55,954 nt of DNA from Chloroflexota bacterium (GTDB lineage Bacteria; Chloroflexota; Dehalococcoidia; Lucifugimonadales; Lucifugimonadaceae), in the NCBI GenBank assembly GCA_018649665.1, contig JABIHL010000151.1, forward strand, positions 1-55,954, written 5' to 3'. The notes beneath the pieces were generated by a model. It saw nothing but the letters and a program-made list of their open reading frames with translations. It searched no databases and was not told the DNA's origin. Below, piece by piece: positions 15,050-31,522 of this stretch; the first letter of the stretch is position 1; each line of letters opens with the position of its first letter. Position numbers and translations under genes: made by a program.

Positions 15050-17797
15050 CTAGTCGGCGACCGGAGAGTGTGCTTCGATCTTGTCTATTCGAATCGCACA
15101 CGCCTTGAATTCAGGTGTTTCGGTGATGAAATCGTAGGCGTCTGATGTGAGCCGGTTGGTCTGAGTTAGCTCTGGGAACGCGAAGCTCATGAAAATCGTG
15201 CCGTGCGGTGAACGTTCGGTTACTTTGATCGGAACTTCGACCGATCCTCTTCTTGAGCTAACAGTTACTTTTTGACCGTCGATGAGTTCGAGTTGCTCTG
15301 CGTCATACGGATGTATCTCAGCAAGTTCCGATGGAACCAATAGCTCAAACCCAGTCGCACGGCCGGTTTGGGTGCCTGTGTGGTAGGTCGAACGGCGCCT
15401 GCCGGTCGTGAGAATCAATGGATATTCGGAGTCGGTTGGTTCCGCTGGTGGAATGTGATCGACAGGAGCGAAGTAGCCGGGCATTCCGGAATCCATCTCG
15501 TCTTCGTGTAGGAACTGGGTGCCGGGATGGTCTTCAGTTGGGCATGGCCACTGAAGACCGCCTTCGGAATCCAGACGGTCGTAAGTGATGCCGGTGAATA
15601 TCGGTGCTAGCTGCCGCATTTCGTCCCAAACATCCGAGGATGAGTGCAGGTCTTGGACCACACCAAACCGATCCATAAGATCCAACAAAATGTCGACATC
15701 TGTGCGTGATTCGCCAACAGGTTTTATCGCCGGTCGAACGCGCTGTATGCGCCGCTCGCTGTTCGCAAAAGTACCGTCGGATTCAGCGAATGATGCAGCC
15801 GGCAAAACTACGTCGGCAAGCTTAGCCGTGTCGGTCATGAAAATGTCTTGAACCACGATGAAGTCGGTCGCTTCGAGCGCTGCTTGGGCATGGTTAGTAT
15901 TGGGGTCGGAAATGACCGTGTTTTCGCCCATAATATATGCGGCTTTGACCTTGCCACGAAGCATCTGGTCCATCGCTGTAATTTTCGTAATTCCGCGACG
16001 TGTTGGAAGCTCTGCATCCCACGCTTTTTCGAACTTTTCACGGACGCCGGGTCGTTCGACTTTTTGGTAGCCGGGAAGGTCGGTCGGAAGTGCACCCGAA
16101 TCGGATGCTCCCTGCACGTTATTTTGACCCCGAAGCGGGTTCACGCCGGCGTTTGGTTTACCGAAATTTCCGCCGAGCATCCCGAGATTCGCTACCGATT
16201 GAACGTTGTGCGATCCACAAGAGTGCTCGGTGATTCCGAGTGTGTAGCAAATAGCCGCTTTTCCAGATGCCGCCGCGTATTCTCGGGCTGTAGCGATAAT
16301 GTCTTCTGCTGGAACGCCGCAGATTTCAGCTGCATATTCAGGAGTGTAGAACTCCACGTGCTTAGCGAGTTCATCGAATCCTTCGGTTCGGTGCTCAACG
16401 TACTCTCGATCGTAAAGACCCTCTTTGATCATCACGTGCGCGAAGGCGTTGAACAGCGGAATGTCGGTGCCGATGTTGATCTGTAAATGTCGAGTCGCCC
16501 ACTTGGTCAGTTCGATCTTGCGAGGGTCGATTACGATGAGCTTTGCGCCGTTTCGTACGGCGCGCTTCATTCGTAGCGAAATTACCGGGTGAGCCTCGGT
16601 CGTGTTCGATCCGACGACCAATAGAAGATCGGTTCCTGCTAACTCTTCAATCGAGTTAGTCATGGCACCTTTGCCAACCATGACCGCCATACCGGCGACC
16701 GTAGGAGCGTGTCAGGTGCGGGAACAGTTATCGATATTGTTAGTACCGATACCTATTCGGGCGAACTTCTGCATCAGATAGTTCGCTTCTGTGACCGTTC
16801 GCGCTGATGACCAGCAAACTAGAGAGTCGGGACCTGAATCATCTCGAATCGCAGTAAATCGTTCTGTGACGAGGTCAAGTGCTTCATCCCACGATGCTCG
16901 TCTGAACGAACCGTTTTCCTTGATGAGCGGGTATTTGAGTCGTTCGTCGCTTTTGACGAACTCCCACGAAGCGAACTGACCTTTTACGCAGAGTGATCCT
17001 CGGCTCGGAGCATCGAAATCTGGTTCGGTTCCTTTTAGCTGGCCATTTTCAGTAAGCAAATGGATGCCGCAGCCAACTCCGCAATACGGACAGATCGACT
17101 TAGTACGTTCGAGATCTTCGGCTTTCGTTGTGCCGACGATTTTTTTGTCTGTAAGTGCACCAGTAGGGCATGTGTTTATGCACTGGCCACAGAACGTGCA
17201 AGGAGATTCGAGAAGATTATTGTTGAAGAACGAGGCAATAGTGTTTTCTTGCCCACGACCTTCGATGGCAATTGCACCGGCTTGCTCCCAGTCGTTACAG
17301 ATGTTTGTGCAACGGAAGCACGAGATGCAGTAGTCGTAGTCACGTTGTATGAACGGGTTGTCGTCCTTCGCCTTTTCTCGAACAACAAGTGAAGGGAACG
17401 CGTCCCATTTCGCATCGTATTCTTCGGCGGCTGTGTGTAGTTCACACTTCTTGAACGAGACGCATTTGGGGCAGTTGGTAGGGGATGAAGTTTCAGAGAG
17501 CAACATCTCAAGAATCGTCTTGCGATAGTCCGTTATCGAATCTGAGTGGGTTTCAACCCGCATTTCTTCTGAAGCAAAGGCGGTGCAGGCGGCAACCTGC
17601 TGCATTTGACCGTTTACCTCGACGTCCACTAAGCACATACGGCAAGTGCCCTGAGGGCCGCTTCGCTCGTCGTAGCACAACGTTGGAACATCAAATCCTG
17701 CTGATCTGATGGCGTCGAGAACTCGAGCGTCGGTTCCGCAATCGATTGCAATTCCGTTAACTTCTACGTTCAGTCTATTTTGGACCGGTGTTGTCAT
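15050..17797 (-). CDS. Formate dehydrogenase alpha subunit (molybdopterin, NuoG-like N-terminus), read through in-frame TGA (putative Sec)
   Basis: The two listed ORFs (16712..17797 and 15050..16690) are in the same frame; 2748 nt divisible by 3. Junction reads NNIDNCSRT-[TGA]-HAPTVAGMAVM, the conserved Sec/Cys active-site position of FDHs. N-terminal 2Fe-2S and several 4Fe-4S Cys motifs (CISCFRCTNIC, CTFCGQCINTC, CPYCGVGCG). Confidence 0.88.
16682..16700 (-). promoter_or_regulatory. Putative bacterial SECIS-like hairpin downstream of UGA (16712-16714)
   Basis: Minus-strand RNA UGA-CACGCUCCUAC-GGUCGCC-GGUAU-GGCGGUC: 7-bp stem with GGU in the loop, at the same codon offset as the E. coli fdhF SECIS apical loop as I recall it. 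Confidence 0.6.
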
Positions 17798-24475: not shown

Positions 24476-24919
24476 TTACTGTATCGATCGAATGTAGGCA
24501 ACGAGTCCGTCAATCTTGTCATCATTCAGAGCAGGGTTGCCGCCCTTGGGTGGCATGTCGATGCCAGTTGTATTCGCCGGGTCGCTGGAAGGTCGACCAG
24601 TTTTGATTAGGGTCGCAAGATCGGAATCAGATATGTTCGTGATGAAATCACTACCGACTAGGCTTTTTCCTAATCCCGTGACACCCGTCGCATCAGCGCC
24701 ATGACAACCTGCGCAAGTACCAAATTCTTTCTCTCCGAGCGCAACTAGTTCCGAGTTTGAAGGACCAGCAGGAATCGCCGTTGCCGCGGGTGCTGTTGTT
24801 GCCGCAGGGGCTGCGGTTGATGCAGTCGAACCTGAACTATCGTCGCTTCCCCCGCCGCACGCAGCAATCAATGCAATCAGCGCTGTCATCGCACCAACTA
24901 TTAAATATCTTTTTATCAA
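24476..24919 (-). CDS. Lipoprotein-type c-type cytochrome, end of nos operon
   Basis: TTG start preceded by GGAGGAATCACA; lipobox LIAAC; CAGCH heme motif; C-terminal DMPPKGGNPALNDDKIDGLVAYIRSIQ. Confidence 0.83.
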   Translation of the reverse strand: MIKRYLIVGAMTALIALIAACGGGSDDSSGSTASTAAPAATTAPAATAIPAGPSNSELVALGEKEFGTCAGCHGADATGVTGLGKSLVGSDFITNISDSDLATLIKTGRPSSDPANTTGIDMPPKGGNPALNDDKIDGLVAYIRSIQ

Positions 24920-24957
24920 TGTGATTCCTCCAAGAATCTTAACTTTTCCAAACAAAA

Positions 24958-25437
24958 TCAATCAACGTGTCGTGGCAGATCCGCAAGTGGTTCTGACAAC
25001 AATTCGTTCCATCTGTAAATCGGCGCCTGATGCTCTTCCGCTAGGTGCTCCGCACCGGCTTCATACGTAAACGCAGCGATGCCATGGCCCATCGGTGTCA
25101 CCAGATCATCGGTAGCTACGAAGAAGGCGTCAGGAGCTTTCATCCACTCGCCAGTCTGGTAATCGTGCACCCAGAATATGTAAACGTCTTCACCATTTAT
25201 ACGGTGATAGAGAACCATGTCACCTAAATCATCGAAAATACGCAATCCGCCGTCAGCGAGTCGATACGCTGCCGCCTGGGCTTCCTCCGAGACGATCATG
25301 CCGCATTGCTCGCATATGACTTCACCGTACGCGATTTCAGGCGTGGCTTCGATATCGACCTCTCCGTGACAGGCGAAAAGTGCCAACGAGCTGAAGATCA
25401 GCATAAGGATTATTGCTGCTTGTCTCTTGATTTTCAT
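24958..25437 (-). CDS. nosL: NosL family copper chaperone lipoprotein
   Basis: Lipobox ALFAC; CEQCGMIVSEE motif; MGHGIAAFT; nos context. Confidence 0.9.
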   Translation of the reverse strand: MKIKRQAAIILMLIFSSLALFACHGEVDIEATPEIAYGEVICEQCGMIVSEEAQAAAYRLADGGLRIFDDLGDMVLYHRINGEDVYIFWVHDYQTGEWMKAPDAFFVATDDLVTPMGHGIAAFTYEAGAEHLAEEHQAPIYRWNELLSEPLADLPRHVD

Positions 25438-26270
25438 TAAAACGCGCCTCGTCTTTTGAAAATGAAGAATCCAATGGCGAACGGTGTTACAACCCAGGCT
25501 ACAAATAGTGCCAATAAAATCGGAAGAAGTGCATCGCCGTACGTACGCATTGCGTACACACCTGCTGGACCAAGAACTTCCAGATCATTTTTTATCGAAA
25601 GAATCGCCGCAAGCTTATAAACCTGTAGTGGGTTTGCAAGAGCCATTAGCAGTAGCTCACGTACACCAATGTCTAAAGTCATTGCTGTGCCCATAAGCCC
25701 AAGATCGCTGAAAAATGCGAGTACTAGCCAGAGGAATACCGCCAAGCCGATTGCAGTTGCACCACGTCGTAGTCCAGCAGATAGAAGAAATCCTATGCTG
25801 AGCGATGAGAGAGCAAGCAATATAGTTAGACCGACAAGTGCCAGAAAATCGCCTGTGTTCGAGGATCCTCCTCTAAGGACGACAAGCAAACCTGAGATGC
25901 CAAATCCGACCAATAACGCCGATGTCAGTGCTGCTGCAATGCCCAGATACTTGCTGATCAAAATTTCGAACGCCGTAACTGGTTGCGACATCAGATATGC
26001 CAACGCACCACGTTCTCGCTCTGAAGCTATTGCGAGTGCTCCGAGAGTCAGCCCCATCAACGGTACGATCAACAACACCATGTTGACCATGCTCGCTGTA
26101 GTACGTCCGAAACCCGCTACACCGAACGAGCCAAGGCCCGAAAGCGCCATCCACGAGAGGGCTGAAGCGATCACGGTAAATCCACCACCGAACATTAACA
26201 ACCACCGACTTTTTGCGGCGTCACGCACTTCCTTCCGAGAAAGCGTGGCGACCGTTTGGAAATCAATCAT
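25437..26270 (-). CDS. nosY: NosY-type ABC transporter permease
   Basis: SERERGALAYLMSQPVTAFEILISKYLG motif; ATGA-type overlap with upstream nosDF stop at 26263. Confidence 0.88.
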   Translation of the reverse strand: MIDFQTVATLSRKEVRDAAKSRWLLMFGGGFTVIASALSWMALSGLGSFGVAGFGRTTASMVNMVLLIVPLMGLTLGALAIASERERGALAYLMSQPVTAFEILISKYLGIAAALTSALLVGFGISGLLVVLRGGSSNTGDFLALVGLTILLALSSLSIGFLLSAGLRRGATAIGLAVFLWLVLAFFSDLGLMGTAMTLDIGVRELLLMALANPLQVYKLAAILSIKNDLEVLGPAGVYAMRTYGDALLPILLALFVAWVVTPFAIGFFIFKRRGAF

Positions 26271-28614
26271 CGATATCGCCTTTCCCAGTACCTTCCAGAT
26301 CAAAGTCAATCACCGAAATACCGGCATCGACCAGTACTTTTATCGGCTTTGCCTTCGCACCCGGCGTCACGGTTACGTAAATTCCAGTTCTATTCCGGGA
26401 TATTTCAAAATCTAGTTCGCCAAGTGCCGACATAGCCGAATCGACATTGTCGAGACCAACTTCAATTCGCATTTTGGGTAGTGCACCAATTCGGGTCATG
26501 AGATCTTCGGGTGCGGATTCGGCTACCAGTTTTCCTTGGTCGAGTAGCAGGACTCGATCAGCCAACCTAAGTACTTCACCCGGACGGTGAGATGCGAATA
26601 CAAGTGCTTTGCCTTCAGATTTCAACTCTTCAAGTAGGGCAAGGAAGTCCTGTCGGGCAGCGGCATCGAGATTGGCGGTCGGCTCGTCGAGTAGCAAGAT
26701 TGGTGGATCGCCCAACAGTGCGATCGCTAGTGCGAGTCGTTGACGTAATCCGCCAGAGAGCTGTCTGACCTGTTTCGTGAGATGAGGAGCAAGTGAGAGG
26801 CGTTCGAGTAGAGCTGAACCCTCGTCGTGTCTCGCTTTGCGGAGCCTCGTGTAAAGGCGCATCGTGTCGATCACGGTCAGATCGTCGTGGAATGAAATCT
26901 CTTGCGGGACGAGTCCAACCTTGGCACGAGCTTGTTTACCGCTGGTTCGTACGTCGATCCCGCAAATGGATACAGAGCCTTCAAAAGACACCTGTCCGAG
27001 TATGCAGCGGATCGCAGTCGTTTTACCCGCACCGTTGTTGCCCCATAGTGCGAGTCCTTCGCCTTGAGCGAGAGTAAACGAAAGATTCTGAAGGGCTTTT
27101 ACGTCTCCAAAGGATCGAGTGAGGCCATTAACCTCGATTACGTTCAAATCTGTGGATTCGTTGTTAGTTGATAGCACGGATTTCTCTTCCGGTATGTCGT
27201 CAGACGTGGTCTTCGTTACGCCCAGACGGGCGACGAGACCTGCAAGACCGATAAATGCGAGCGAAGCAATGAGTGTTTTCCAGTTGGTTTCTTTGTTGTC
27301 GAGGACCAGACCGGGTACTACGCCCGGTTGCATCAACGGTGAAGGGTCGGTCAGTTTTGGTTCAGGGCGAACGAACGGAAATGATTTCGCGGCGAAATCG
27401 ACTGCTTGTGTGACCGGACTAAACGTAAGCAACCGCAGTTTTGGGTGTTTGTCGGTCAAGTTCTCGAACAATTTTTCGGATTTGTAGATCACATCTCCAA
27501 TCCCATCGTTGTTTGCGTCGAATCCCGCGTAGTCACTCCAGTAGTTGCCGACTCCATCGACAGCCCATAAGTTGTCTTTGAGTGTTCCGCGTCCGGCGAC
27601 TTGAACTTGTTCCTGATTATCGACGAAGCTGTTTCCTGTGTACTGATTTCGCTTTACAGATGGCATGATCCTAACGCCGAAGTCGTTCAGTACGAACACG
27701 TTGTCGATAAATTCAACAGTGCTGTCCCGCTCTCTAGGCGAGTTGTCGACATAAGCGCCGACTCTGTTGTCGGCGAACAAATTGCCTTTCACATAAGCGT
27801 CATCGAGGTCTTTTAGGCCTATTCCGTAGCCGGAAGGGCCACGGTTGTCGCCAACGACATTGTCGATCATTCGAAGTCGTCGTGAGTACATAAGGAATGC
27901 ACCGACCGAGTTTCCGGTGAGACGGTTGTTTTCGACTAAGGCATCGTCGTCGTACATGAAGTGGAGCCCGTACCGACCGTCGTAAATATTGTTGCCCTTG
28001 ACTGTGAGGCGTTCGGAATACCAGAGCACAACATCCCGAACCAGCGAGACATCGTTGTTTTCGATGACTGTATCGCTGGAGTACCAGACTCGAATTCCGT
28101 CGCCTCTACGTTGAACTTCGAGATCCATTCCCGTTATCACGTTGTTTCGTATCACGCCGAACGGAGCTTGCTTCAGGTAAACACCGAACAAGGTGTCTTG
28201 TATCCGATTGCCTTCGATGGTGACGTTTGGAGCGTTGACTTCAATTCCGGCATCCTCTGAATTCAAGGTGCCGCCGGAATTCTGGATGACCAGACCACTG
28301 ATCGCTACATCTGATGCTTCGACGGTAATAACGTTGCCATCACCGCCACCATCGAACACGGGCCAACCGTTGCCGATGACGGTGATGGACTTAGTGATTA
28401 CAAAATTGCCATTGTGGGTGCCTGAAGTGATGGTCAGCACATCACCGTTTTGCGCATCATCGATCGCATCTTGGAACGTTGCATATGTTCCTCGTTCCGA
28501 CTCGATAGAGTTTGTGCTCTGTGCGCGGATTATCGAAACGGATGAACCGATGGCGACTAATAACAACAGTATCGCCGTAGTCGTTGTGAATTTTCCAGCC
28601 CTGGAGTTCAACAC
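26263..28614 (-). CDS. Fused NosD (beta-helix periplasmic Cu-maturation) - TM - NosF (ABC ATPase)
   Basis: One uninterrupted 783-aa ORF: signal peptide, parallel beta-helix repeats (VIENNDVSLVRD..., LVENNRLTGNSVGAFLMYS), TM LIASLAFIGLAGLVARLG, then ATPase WGNNGAGKTT / LSGGLRQRLALAIALL / LLLDEPTANLD. Confidence 0.9.
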   Translation of the reverse strand: MLNSRAGKFTTTTAILLLLVAIGSSVSIIRAQSTNSIESERGTYATFQDAIDDAQNGDVLTITSGTHNGNFVITKSITVIGNGWPVFDGGGDGNVITVEASDVAISGLVIQNSGGTLNSEDAGIEVNAPNVTIEGNRIQDTLFGVYLKQAPFGVIRNNVITGMDLEVQRRGDGIRVWYSSDTVIENNDVSLVRDVVLWYSERLTVKGNNIYDGRYGLHFMYDDDALVENNRLTGNSVGAFLMYSRRLRMIDNVVGDNRGPSGYGIGLKDLDDAYVKGNLFADNRVGAYVDNSPRERDSTVEFIDNVFVLNDFGVRIMPSVKRNQYTGNSFVDNQEQVQVAGRGTLKDNLWAVDGVGNYWSDYAGFDANNDGIGDVIYKSEKLFENLTDKHPKLRLLTFSPVTQAVDFAAKSFPFVRPEPKLTDPSPLMQPGVVPGLVLDNKETNWKTLIASLAFIGLAGLVARLGVTKTTSDDIPEEKSVLSTNNESTDLNVIEVNGLTRSFGDVKALQNLSFTLAQGEGLALWGNNGAGKTTAIRCILGQVSFEGSVSICGIDVRTSGKQARAKVGLVPQEISFHDDLTVIDTMRLYTRLRKARHDEGSALLERLSLAPHLTKQVRQLSGGLRQRLALAIALLGDPPILLLDEPTANLDAAARQDFLALLEELKSEGKALVFASHRPGEVLRLADRVLLLDQGKLVAESAPEDLMTRIGALPKMRIEVGLDNVDSAMSALGELDFEISRNRTGIYVTVTPGAKAKPIKVLVDAGISVIDFDLEGTGKGDIDD

Positions 28615-28622
28615 GGTTTTAC

Positions 28623-29312
28623 CTACTGATCCCCGCTGGAGGACTGTTGAACAGCCTTTGCTTCATCCAACAACGGCTTGTAAGCCCTGCGGTGGAAGAA
28701 GATTCCCAATGCGATAAGTACCGAGGCGCTCATCGACATCCAGAATCCGCTCTCCCAGCTGGCATAAGTCGTGAACTGGGCAATTTTGCCTTCACCAATT
28801 AGCGGTGGAACGAACGGTTCGATGATGCTCGACAACGGAGCGCTCTCGTCGAGATTCATACCGAAATTCTGCATCCAGTACCAAAGATCGGCGAGGAATA
28901 TTGCCGGGTAGAGCAATACCGGCCAAGTAAGTAGTAGGGCGCAAGGGTTGTGAATAAATATTGCCGACACGATTAGTAACACAAGTGAACCGATTGCGAT
29001 GACTGCTAGGGAGCGCTCAAGCTCTCCGGCTTCACTTAGTGGTCGCATTCCGATGTAGTGGTTGAGTGTGTCGACTTCTTGTACATCGCCTTCGACGCGA
29101 TTGACGAAGACTGTCATCTCCAATCCACGAGGATATTGCGGTGCATCCATTTCCATGCGCCAGTAAGGGAAAAATGTTGAGATGAAAAGGACTACCGCGG
29201 CGATAAGCATTAGTAGGGTCGGGAGGATGAACCTGAACCGATCCCTGAATACGATTTCACGAGGGATGCGTGGCCCGAAAGCTTTTTCTTTGAGCTCATT
29301 GATGCGCAGCAA
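28623..29312 (-). CDS. Hypothetical multi-TM membrane protein of the nos operon
   Basis: About four hydrophobic helices; located between nosZ and nosDF on the same strand. Confidence 0.75.
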   Translation of the reverse strand: MLRINELKEKAFGPRIPREIVFRDRFRFILPTLLMLIAAVVLFISTFFPYWRMEMDAPQYPRGLEMTVFVNRVEGDVQEVDTLNHYIGMRPLSEAGELERSLAVIAIGSLVLLIVSAIFIHNPCALLLTWPVLLYPAIFLADLWYWMQNFGMNLDESAPLSSIIEPFVPPLIGEGKIAQFTTYASWESGFWMSMSASVLIALGIFFHRRAYKPLLDEAKAVQQSSSGDQ

Positions 29313-29452
29313 TTTATGGTTAGCCCTTTAGGTTCAATTTCAAGATAATTTTGAATGATTAGCCTTTCCGGGCTATATCGGAACACAGCCCAGAAAGGTG
29401 TGGCGATAGCAGGGATTTATTTCTGCTATCGCCGATTTTTCGTACTTTCTGG

Positions 29453-31522
29453 TTAGTTAGGTGCAACCAGGAAGAAACCGGCCATTTCAAGGTGAAGCGC
29501 AGAACAGAACTCTGTGCAGTAGAAGGTGAATACACCCTCGTCTGTCACATCGAATTCGATTGTCTGGTGCTCACCAGGTTCCAGACTCAAGTTAATGTTC
29601 TGGCCTGGCAGTGCGAAGCCGTGTGTGGCATCGAACGCAGTTTCAAGGTTTGTGAGGTCCCAAGTAACGTGGTCACCAACCTTCACCCTCACACGTTCAG
29701 GAGTGAAGTGTGAACGGATGAGCGTTGACTTGACCGTTACGTTGTTTCCATCCCGAGTGACTCCTTCTTCACCCGGTGCTACAGCACGTGGGTCAAGGGA
29801 CATCGTCTCAGGGTTCCAACCAACCTCTGGGTAAACTTCCCATGCGTTTAGCTTGTCGGCCTTGATGATCTGCGCATAGTGCGGCTCACCAACTCCGATT
29901 GGGCTGTCGTAGATCACTGGCATGGTCTCGCCACCCTCAGAGATGTCCAACAGCTGGAAGTTCTGTGGCAGTAGCGGGCCTACTACGTTGAAGCGGTCGA
30001 TCGACCACTTGTTCATAGCTACCAAGTACTTACCATCCGGACTAACAGTGTCTCCCTCAGCAGTTGCCAAGTGACCAATGTTGTAGTGCACCGGAGTCTT
30101 CGTGATTAGCTCCCAGTCAGGCTCGCTGTGCAGGTCGCTGAAGCTGCCACCAAGGGTCCAACGTGCGACTGCAGAGTCGAGGAACAGGGATGTGTATGCG
30201 TAACCCTGGTTGTCGAACTGGGTGTGCAGTGGGCCGAGGCCAACTTCAACCTGTACTTCAACAACTGTGTCGAAATCTAGGATTCCAACACCGAACACAT
30301 CGTGCTCAGTTGCGCCAGCAGCAATTGCTGCCTTGATCTTCGGAACTGAGTAAACAGTTACGTGAGGATCGAGCTTGCCAGATACAACAACGAATTCACC
30401 ATCTGGTGTTACGTCGGCACCGTGTGGGCTCTTTGGCTCAGGAGCAAAGTGAAGGATGCCTTCAGTAGCGGCAGTTTCGAGCGAGATCACCGGGAATCCG
30501 TTGATCAAGTCGGTTTTACCAGCTGCAACTGCGTCCGTCATTTTCTTGATGTCGAAGATGTGCAGGTAGTCCATGTCAGCCTGCGAGATACCAGCCTCTA
30601 GAGGCGGGTTACCGTCTTCAATACCACCGGTAGCCATTTCTGAGTTGAATGAACCACAGAAGATGAGACCTGCGCTTGTGAGCTTGCCTGCGTCACAAAG
30701 GTCCTGCCAGTACGGAGGTGTTTCTATAGCGAACGACTCATCGTAGTTGATACGACCGGTTGAACGATCGAACTTCCACATTGTGAGAACGCCACGGTAT
30801 TTTTCTTCGTAATCTTCAATCGCAGCGTAGGAACCATCGAGCGGAGCAGGGAACTGCCCACCTTCGATAACCCATTCAGTGTCTGGAGTAACCATGGTTG
30901 CACCGTGGTTAGACATTGAAAGCGGGTTCTTGATGATCTGCTTTGTCTCAAAGTCTCTTAGGTCGATTACTGCAATACGGCCGTTTGCCTTCTCATTTAT
31001 GAAGGCCCACTCACCGTCGTAGTCTCCTGCTGTCTCAGAGAGTGCAGGGTGATGAGTATCACCCCAACTGAGATCCGTTCCGTCGTCAAGGTTTCCGTCG
31101 TCTAGGATGTGACTGGTCGAACTGGCGTCACCGACTGCCCAACCCTGCCATGGTTCAGGTGTGTAGACACCGACAACCTTGAGGAGTCTCATCGATGGAA
31201 GACCGATGACGAGCATCTGTCCTGAGTGACCGCCGGATGCAAATTGGATGTATTCATCCCTGCCACCCGATGGCACGTAGGTTTTTACAGCGGCTTCAAT
31301 GTCTGCCTCTGTAAGTCCGCGTTCGGCTGCAATAGCGCTAACGCCACTTGCAACTTGACTGCCCGAGCCGTTCGATGAAGACGACGGCGTGGCAGTCGGG
31401 TCTTCGTCGCTCGTACACCCGACCAAAGCGATCAGTAGTACGAGGGCCATGATGGAGGACACGGTCAGCAGAGAGCGTTTGCTACCTGTGAGTGTGAGTC
31501 CATCGATATCGGATCCGTTCAT
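29453..31522 (-). CDS. nosZ: Nitrous-oxide reductase NosZ (clade II-like), lipoprotein signal peptide
   Basis: LDDGNLDDGTDLSWGDTHHPALSETAGDYDG CuZ region; CuA motif CTEFCSALHLEM; lipobox ALVGC; no Tat RR motif seen; start preceded by GGGGAG. Confidence 0.95.
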   Translation of the reverse strand: MNGSDIDGLTLTGSKRSLLTVSSIMALVLLIALVGCTSDEDPTATPSSSSNGSGSQVASGVSAIAAERGLTEADIEAAVKTYVPSGGRDEYIQFASGGHSGQMLVIGLPSMRLLKVVGVYTPEPWQGWAVGDASSTSHILDDGNLDDGTDLSWGDTHHPALSETAGDYDGEWAFINEKANGRIAVIDLRDFETKQIIKNPLSMSNHGATMVTPDTEWVIEGGQFPAPLDGSYAAIEDYEEKYRGVLTMWKFDRSTGRINYDESFAIETPPYWQDLCDAGKLTSAGLIFCGSFNSEMATGGIEDGNPPLEAGISQADMDYLHIFDIKKMTDAVAAGKTDLINGFPVISLETAATEGILHFAPEPKSPHGADVTPDGEFVVVSGKLDPHVTVYSVPKIKAAIAAGATEHDVFGVGILDFDTVVEVQVEVGLGPLHTQFDNQGYAYTSLFLDSAVARWTLGGSFSDLHSEPDWELITKTPVHYNIGHLATAEGDTVSPDGKYLVAMNKWSIDRFNVVGPLLPQNFQLLDISEGGETMPVIYDSPIGVGEPHYAQIIKADKLNAWEVYPEVGWNPETMSLDPRAVAPGEEGVTRDGNNVTVKSTLIRSHFTPERVRVKVGDHVTWDLTNLETAFDATHGFALPGQNINLSLEPGEHQTIEFDVTDEGVFTFYCTEFCSALHLEMAGFFLVAPN

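Follow-up and report, generated by a model that had tools for sequence, protein, structure and literature searches.

A predicted selenocysteine-containing formate dehydrogenase, encoded across an in-frame UGA, in a SAR202 bacterium

The gene fdhA in the window (the whole stretch of 55,954 nucleotides analysed here, contig C33 of a Chloroflexota MAG) is best read as one intact gene for a 915-aa selenocysteine (Sec)-containing formate dehydrogenase (FDH) alpha subunit, cytoplasmic and of the NAD(P) type, from a SAR202 (Dehalococcoidia) bacterium, in which a UGA codon would be read as Sec. We give this reading a probability of about 0.96. The features on which it is built are the following:

15050–17797, minus strand: fdhA, putative 915-aa formate dehydrogenase alpha subunit with predicted Sec at residue 362 (translation, Pfam, TIGR01591 and PDB homologues)
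16712–16714, minus strand: in-frame UGA, residue 362, putatively read as selenocysteine (TGA in all SAR202 relatives that span this codon; structure alignment)
16682–16700, minus strand: SECIS-type hairpin GGUCGCC-GGUAU-GGCGGUC, 19 nt, 11 nt after the UGA (constraint, covariation and match to E. coli fdhF)
16712–17797, minus strand: upstream half, a 361-aa ORF, annotation artefact (ORF list)
15050–16690, minus strand: downstream half, a 546-aa ORF beginning at an ATG within the SECIS hairpin, annotation artefact (ORF list)

The reading frame and the protein

The frame from 17797 to 15050 (minus strand) opens with an ATG and runs for 915 codons and a stop, and its sole internal stop is the TGA at 16712–16714, which reads tca on the plus strand and has the translated context DNCSRT-*-HAPTVAGMAVM. 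The initial annotation had proposed that a single TGA parts two ORFs of the same frame in this context and that an automatic annotator would split the gene, and both points were confirmed, the ORF list of a standard caller giving two ORFs of 361 and 546 aa for fdhA.

Pfam searches identified 2Fe-2S and 4Fe-4S domains of the NuoG/complex-I type at the N-terminus, followed by Molybdop_Fe4S4, Molybdopterin and Molydop_binding domains, and the protein passes the NCBIfam equivalog model for formate dehydrogenase alpha, TIGR01591, with 780.5 bits (cut-off 666.25). The solved structures nearest to FdhA are formate dehydrogenases and CO2 reductases. When aligned with these, residue 362 falls on the modified residue (X) in chain L of 9t1s, an F420-dependent FDH, and on a Cys in both 7qv7 and 9wxb, which bears out the earlier suggestion that the TGA occupies the catalytic Sec/Cys site of an FDH. 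The Sec/Cys ligand followed by His (UHAPTVAG) and the downstream NPLRGQNNVQG also align with the solved FDHs, and the His beside Sec, the lysine of CVKG and the arginine of PLRGQNNVQG are all conserved; we take these residues to have the same catalytic roles as in E. coli FdhF. Rhodobacter capsulatus FdsA (6tg9) gives a full-length domain match over residues 10–905. At the Sec position FdsA carries a Cys, and the FdhD homologue FdsC is encoded in the FdsA operon.

The hairpin downstream of the UGA

The hairpin that had been described from the letters, GGUCGCC-GGUAU-GGCGGUC at 11 nt past the UGA, was recovered exactly, with a stem of seven pairs, two of them G-U, and the apical loop GGUAU. A helix of 7 bp with a loop of 5 nt at this offset is found only here among the 903 codon positions of the fdhA CDS, and the same helix class occurs at 0.14% of the positions of the window, both strands counted. 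When codon identity was calculated among identical residues in SAR202-type sequences, the best window of eight codons coincided with the hairpin stretch (0.90 compared to a mean of 0.40, sd 0.07), showing the strongest codon-level constraint of the whole gene.

In an alignment of 28 TGA-bearing sequences from several phyla, 88.8% of the cells of the seven pairs are paired and nine cells have changed on both sides compared to 2.1 in shuffles, the paired changes being from C-G to U-A or G-C and from G-C to A-U or C-G. When the partner strand is slid, pairing falls to 19–62%; since a slide by +1 leaves about as many double changes (10), the argument is carried by the pairing percentage together with the covariation score. 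The GGU noted earlier in the apical loop is part of GGUAU, in which G22 and G23 (numbered from the U of UGA) are invariant in all 28 sequences.

The folding check suggested by the initial annotation gave no support, as the 48-nt region is no more stable than dinucleotide-shuffled versions of it (z = +0.53) and minimum-energy prediction yields a fold other than the hairpin. Stability over shuffles was regarded as a supporting, non-strict criterion for short elements inside coding sequence, and with an unremarkable folding energy the hairpin rests on comparative evidence.

In E. coli fdhF the corresponding stretch is UGA-CACGGCCCAUC-GGUUGCAGGUCUGCACC, where the spacer is of equal length (11 nt) and U17, G23 and U24 coincide with those of the SAR202 hairpin; these three positions we take to be important in the E. 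coli element. The UGA context and the catalytic motifs are also shared between the two genes. There are two differences: in the SAR202 hairpin U17 is able to pair with G31 whereas it is bulged in the SECIS of E. coli fdhF, and E. coli FdhF lacks the NuoG-like N-terminal extension that the SAR202 FdhA has.

Selenocysteine decoding, conservation and rival readings

The MAG comprises 2.65 Mb in 180 contigs and is 86% complete with 3.7% contamination. The named relatives closest to it are MAGs of Chloroflexi/Dehalococcoidia, several carrying the SAR202 label, and the cultured SAR202 strain Candidatus Lucifugimonas marina JH1073 matches at 88% identity. The initial annotation had predicted that a Sec-FDH implies selA, selB, selC and selD elsewhere in the genome, and all four were found in the same MAG: a tRNA-Sec with anticodon UCA (L001 547–640, ARAGORN and Rfam; 66.4 bits, cut-off 47), SelB with the C-terminal domains SelB-wing_2 and SelB-wing_3 (L009 1495–3345, TIGR00475, 320 bits), SelA (L013, 529 bits) and SelD (L021 1483–2535 on contig G000:C168, 366 bits). 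The Rfam family for tRNA-Sec also scores tRNA-Ser at ~40–54 bits, and a tRNA-Sec was counted only at ~59 bits or more, the MAG's own one being additionally required to show the UCA anticodon in ARAGORN. The selD gene itself is interrupted in frame by a TGA within its catalytic motif, TCAG-U-AGK, at what we take to be the catalytic Cys of SelD (Cys17 in E. coli), which makes SelD a probable second selenoprotein in this MAG.

As the Sec machinery genes are situated on contigs other than C33, contamination of the MAG was considered. This worry is removed by a single-contig genome (G001/G016) that matches JH1073, its tRNA-Sec coordinates being identical to those in the JH1073 record, and that harbours tRNA-Sec, SelB and the same TGA-bearing fdhA (L065/L118). 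SelB and tRNA-Sec, whose absence had been named as what would speak against a selenoprotein, are thus present both in the MAG and in a genome of one contig.

The Sec column was compared across loci of a species collection and in 60 genomes of the same order. All SAR202-type loci covering the site have TGA, while other phyla have TGA or TGC/TGT. An fdhA orthologue of at least 55% identity is found in 29 of the 60 order genomes, in every case with TGA and without any other stop, and the more distant FDHs within the order (38–46% identity) have Cys at the column. In one genome (G017) fdhA is broken across two contig ends near the UGA/SECIS site (G017:C54 and G017:C78; L149, L150) but retains the TGA. 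A second match in G009 (36% identity, TCG at the column) is weak, appears to be a different oxidoreductase and was set aside. The homologous column, which the initial annotation had wanted checked for U/C, is thus U or C, and the pattern that would have pointed to a pseudogene, another sense codon together with scattered stops in close relatives, was looked for and is absent from them.

SelB scores over the cut-off in all 29 genomes with the TGA-bearing gene, and the gene is found in none of the seven genomes without SelB (p = 0.011, uncorrected for kinship). tRNA-Sec was detected in 24 of the 29; in the remaining five (G003, G017, G028, G031 and G033, draft MAGs, all with SelB) no tRNA-Sec above the tRNA-Ser level was found. 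The presence of tRNA-Sec showed no significant association with that of the gene (p = 0.24), since Sec decoding is retained by many relatives that lack this FDH and the tRNA is missing from some MAGs. Altogether 21 order genomes have a tRNA-Sec while no TGA-bearing FdhA orthologue was detected in them; there Sec decoding may serve other selenoproteins, or fdhA may be missing from the MAG.

In SAR202 fdhA stands alone, without an adjacent diaphorase partner. It is flanked on one side by genes for a DedA/VTT-type protein, a cytochrome c and an AIR-carboxylase-like protein and on the other by hydroxyacid dehydrogenase, HpcH/HpaI, MaoC and CoA-transferase genes, an order kept in SAR202 relatives. 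Elsewhere in the window, at 24476–31522 on the minus strand, there is a nitrous-oxide-reductase-like cluster with a nos_propeller/cupredoxin protein (29453–31522), NosL, an ABC-2 permease and a cytochrome c, and a 783-aa ORF (26263–28614) with NosD and ABC-transporter ATPase domains appears to be a nosD-nosF fusion.

That the TGA is a true premature stop in a pseudogene, or a sequencing or assembly error, would agree with the gene being split in two by a standard ORF caller. This is very improbable, and is refuted by the conservation of the TGA, which recurs without other stops across independent MAGs as well as the complete JH1073 genome down to ~55% protein identity and falls exactly on the Sec/Cys column; codon constraint in the gene is strongest past it, and the conserved neighbourhood across SAR202 speaks against an assembly error. 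Regulated or programmed termination, with the two halves made as separate proteins and the downstream one started from the ATG at 16690, could draw on the presence of that ATG within the hairpin, but in several relatives the ATG is replaced by CTG, the split would cut through one Pfam/NCBIfam domain and leave the catalytic residue apart from its remainder, and the genome has a complete Sec machinery, which leaves this reading with hardly any weight. For a TGA decoded as another amino acid (e.g. Trp or Cys) through general reassignment or a suppressor tRNA no support was found in the window: of its five stop-separated frame pairs (each frame at least 100 codons) only one, fdhA itself, unites one recognised protein, while the remaining four seem to be due to chance or to the normal ends of genes. 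Such decoding would moreover leave the SECIS-like constraint unexplained in a genome with a canonical tRNA-Sec(UCA) and SelB, and we consider its probability to be of the order of a percent. With the lone in-frame TGA, the Sec machinery and the conserved column taken together, the claim of one 915-aa selenoprotein is supported at the level of sequence, and Sec insertion at UGA 362 is what we infer.

Activity, the missing FdhD and proposed role

In the proposed mechanism SelB, with GTP and Sec-tRNA-Sec, would use its C-terminal winged helices to bind the hairpin and would deliver Sec at UGA 362. The Sec would then ligate Mo or W in a bis-MGD centre where formate and CO2 are interconverted, and electrons would travel via the Fe-S clusters of the N-terminus to a diaphorase resembling NuoE/NuoF, yielding NADH. 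The only NuoF-like match in the MAG lies at the end of contig C125 beside a NuoE-like gene (L152 7877–10137, G000:C125), and since Spirochaete and Planctomycete homologues have NuoE/F-like genes directly upstream of fdhA, this pair is a reasonable candidate in trans for the NAD-reducing partner of FdhA. The UGA at the metal-ligand Sec/Cys site, the SECIS hairpin, SelA, SelB, SelD and tRNA-Sec are seen in the sequence, and the remaining steps are drawn from established biology. The likely role is formate oxidation ending C1 or demethylation catabolism.

FDH activity in E. coli requires the sulfurtransferase FdhD, and so does the tungsten FDH of Methylorubrum (PMC10609526; PMC13197769). FdhD was not found in the MAG with TIGR00129, nor with PF02634 in any of the 60 order genomes, several of them single-contig and 29 of them carrying a Sec-FdhA, and it was not detected either in ten SAR202-type or Dehalococcoidia genomes reached via named loci (overlapping in part with the 60). 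Outside the SAR202/Dehalococcoidia group 18 of 24 genomes carrying homologues of this FDH have FdhD, and as a control of the models the family was detected in 8 of 14 named genomes. FdhD is a usual companion of FDHs and not a defining feature, and a review states that fdhD is missing from some organisms expressing FDHs (PMC10609526).

With FdhD not found in the order, FDH activity is not assured. Sec may be inserted into a protein that is not an active FDH but some other oxidoreductase from the DMSO-reductase superfamily or, as in Dehalococcoides, an FDH-like protein that is inactive, and besides the missing FdhD (60 of 60 order genomes) this could be argued from the Dehalococcoides FDH-like CISM protein, which is of the same class (Dehalococcoidia) and superfamily as the SAR202 FdhA but has Ser at the site, belongs to a respiratory complex and is without formate activity (PMC5736913). 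We find it unlikely, though less so than the readings that dispense with Sec, as the Fdh-alpha equivalog cut-off is passed, the FDH-type motifs are conserved, the closest solved structures are those of FDHs and CO2 reductases, and FDHs are expressed by some organisms lacking fdhD. If FdhA is an active FDH, a highly divergent or analogous factor may stand in for FdhD. That the whole SAR202 order matures active Sec (in other members Cys) FDHs without FdhD, by an unrecognised sulfuration factor or an FdhD-independent metal centre, is a tentative proposal, to which we would give somewhat less than even odds.

Compared to FdhA of Moorella thermoacetica and the FDH of the Chloroflexi single cell An-B22, the latter likewise from Chloroflexota (PMC5736913, PMC4959059), the SAR202 protein is alike in its Sec metal ligand and its N-terminal Fe-S and molybdopterin domains, but differs in the marine SAR202 host, the lone alpha gene with a NuoEF-like pair on another contig, and an order without FdhD. 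Earlier work has recorded Sec-FDHs from single cells and MAGs of Chloroflexi (PMC4959059, PMC5736913, PMC3971608), and being already known in other Chloroflexi the SAR202 Sec-FDH is ordinary in kind. A Sargasso Sea survey of 2005 found FDH to be a minor selenoprotein, with 8 of 209 known-family sequences (PMC1088965), and SelA and SelB have been reported in sponge symbiont bins. The SAR202 literature describes formate dehydrogenase as a C1-oxidation step with selenium not mentioned (PMC5395668, PMC11245477), and the main text of the Ca. Lucifugimonas marina cultivation paper brings up neither formate nor selenium (PMC10444878). A search of the open-licence literature, weak evidence of absence in itself, gave no paper on selenocysteine in SAR202.

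Gene callers will split fdhA, which gives the present reading a value as an annotation correction. The clade-wide absence of FdhD is the notable and unexpected part and the one worth following, as it turns a caveat of the field (PMC10609526) into a clean comparative case that includes a cultured strain. SAR202 are abundant bacteria of the dark ocean, and if Sec is needed, formate oxidation by their cells would be selenium-dependent.
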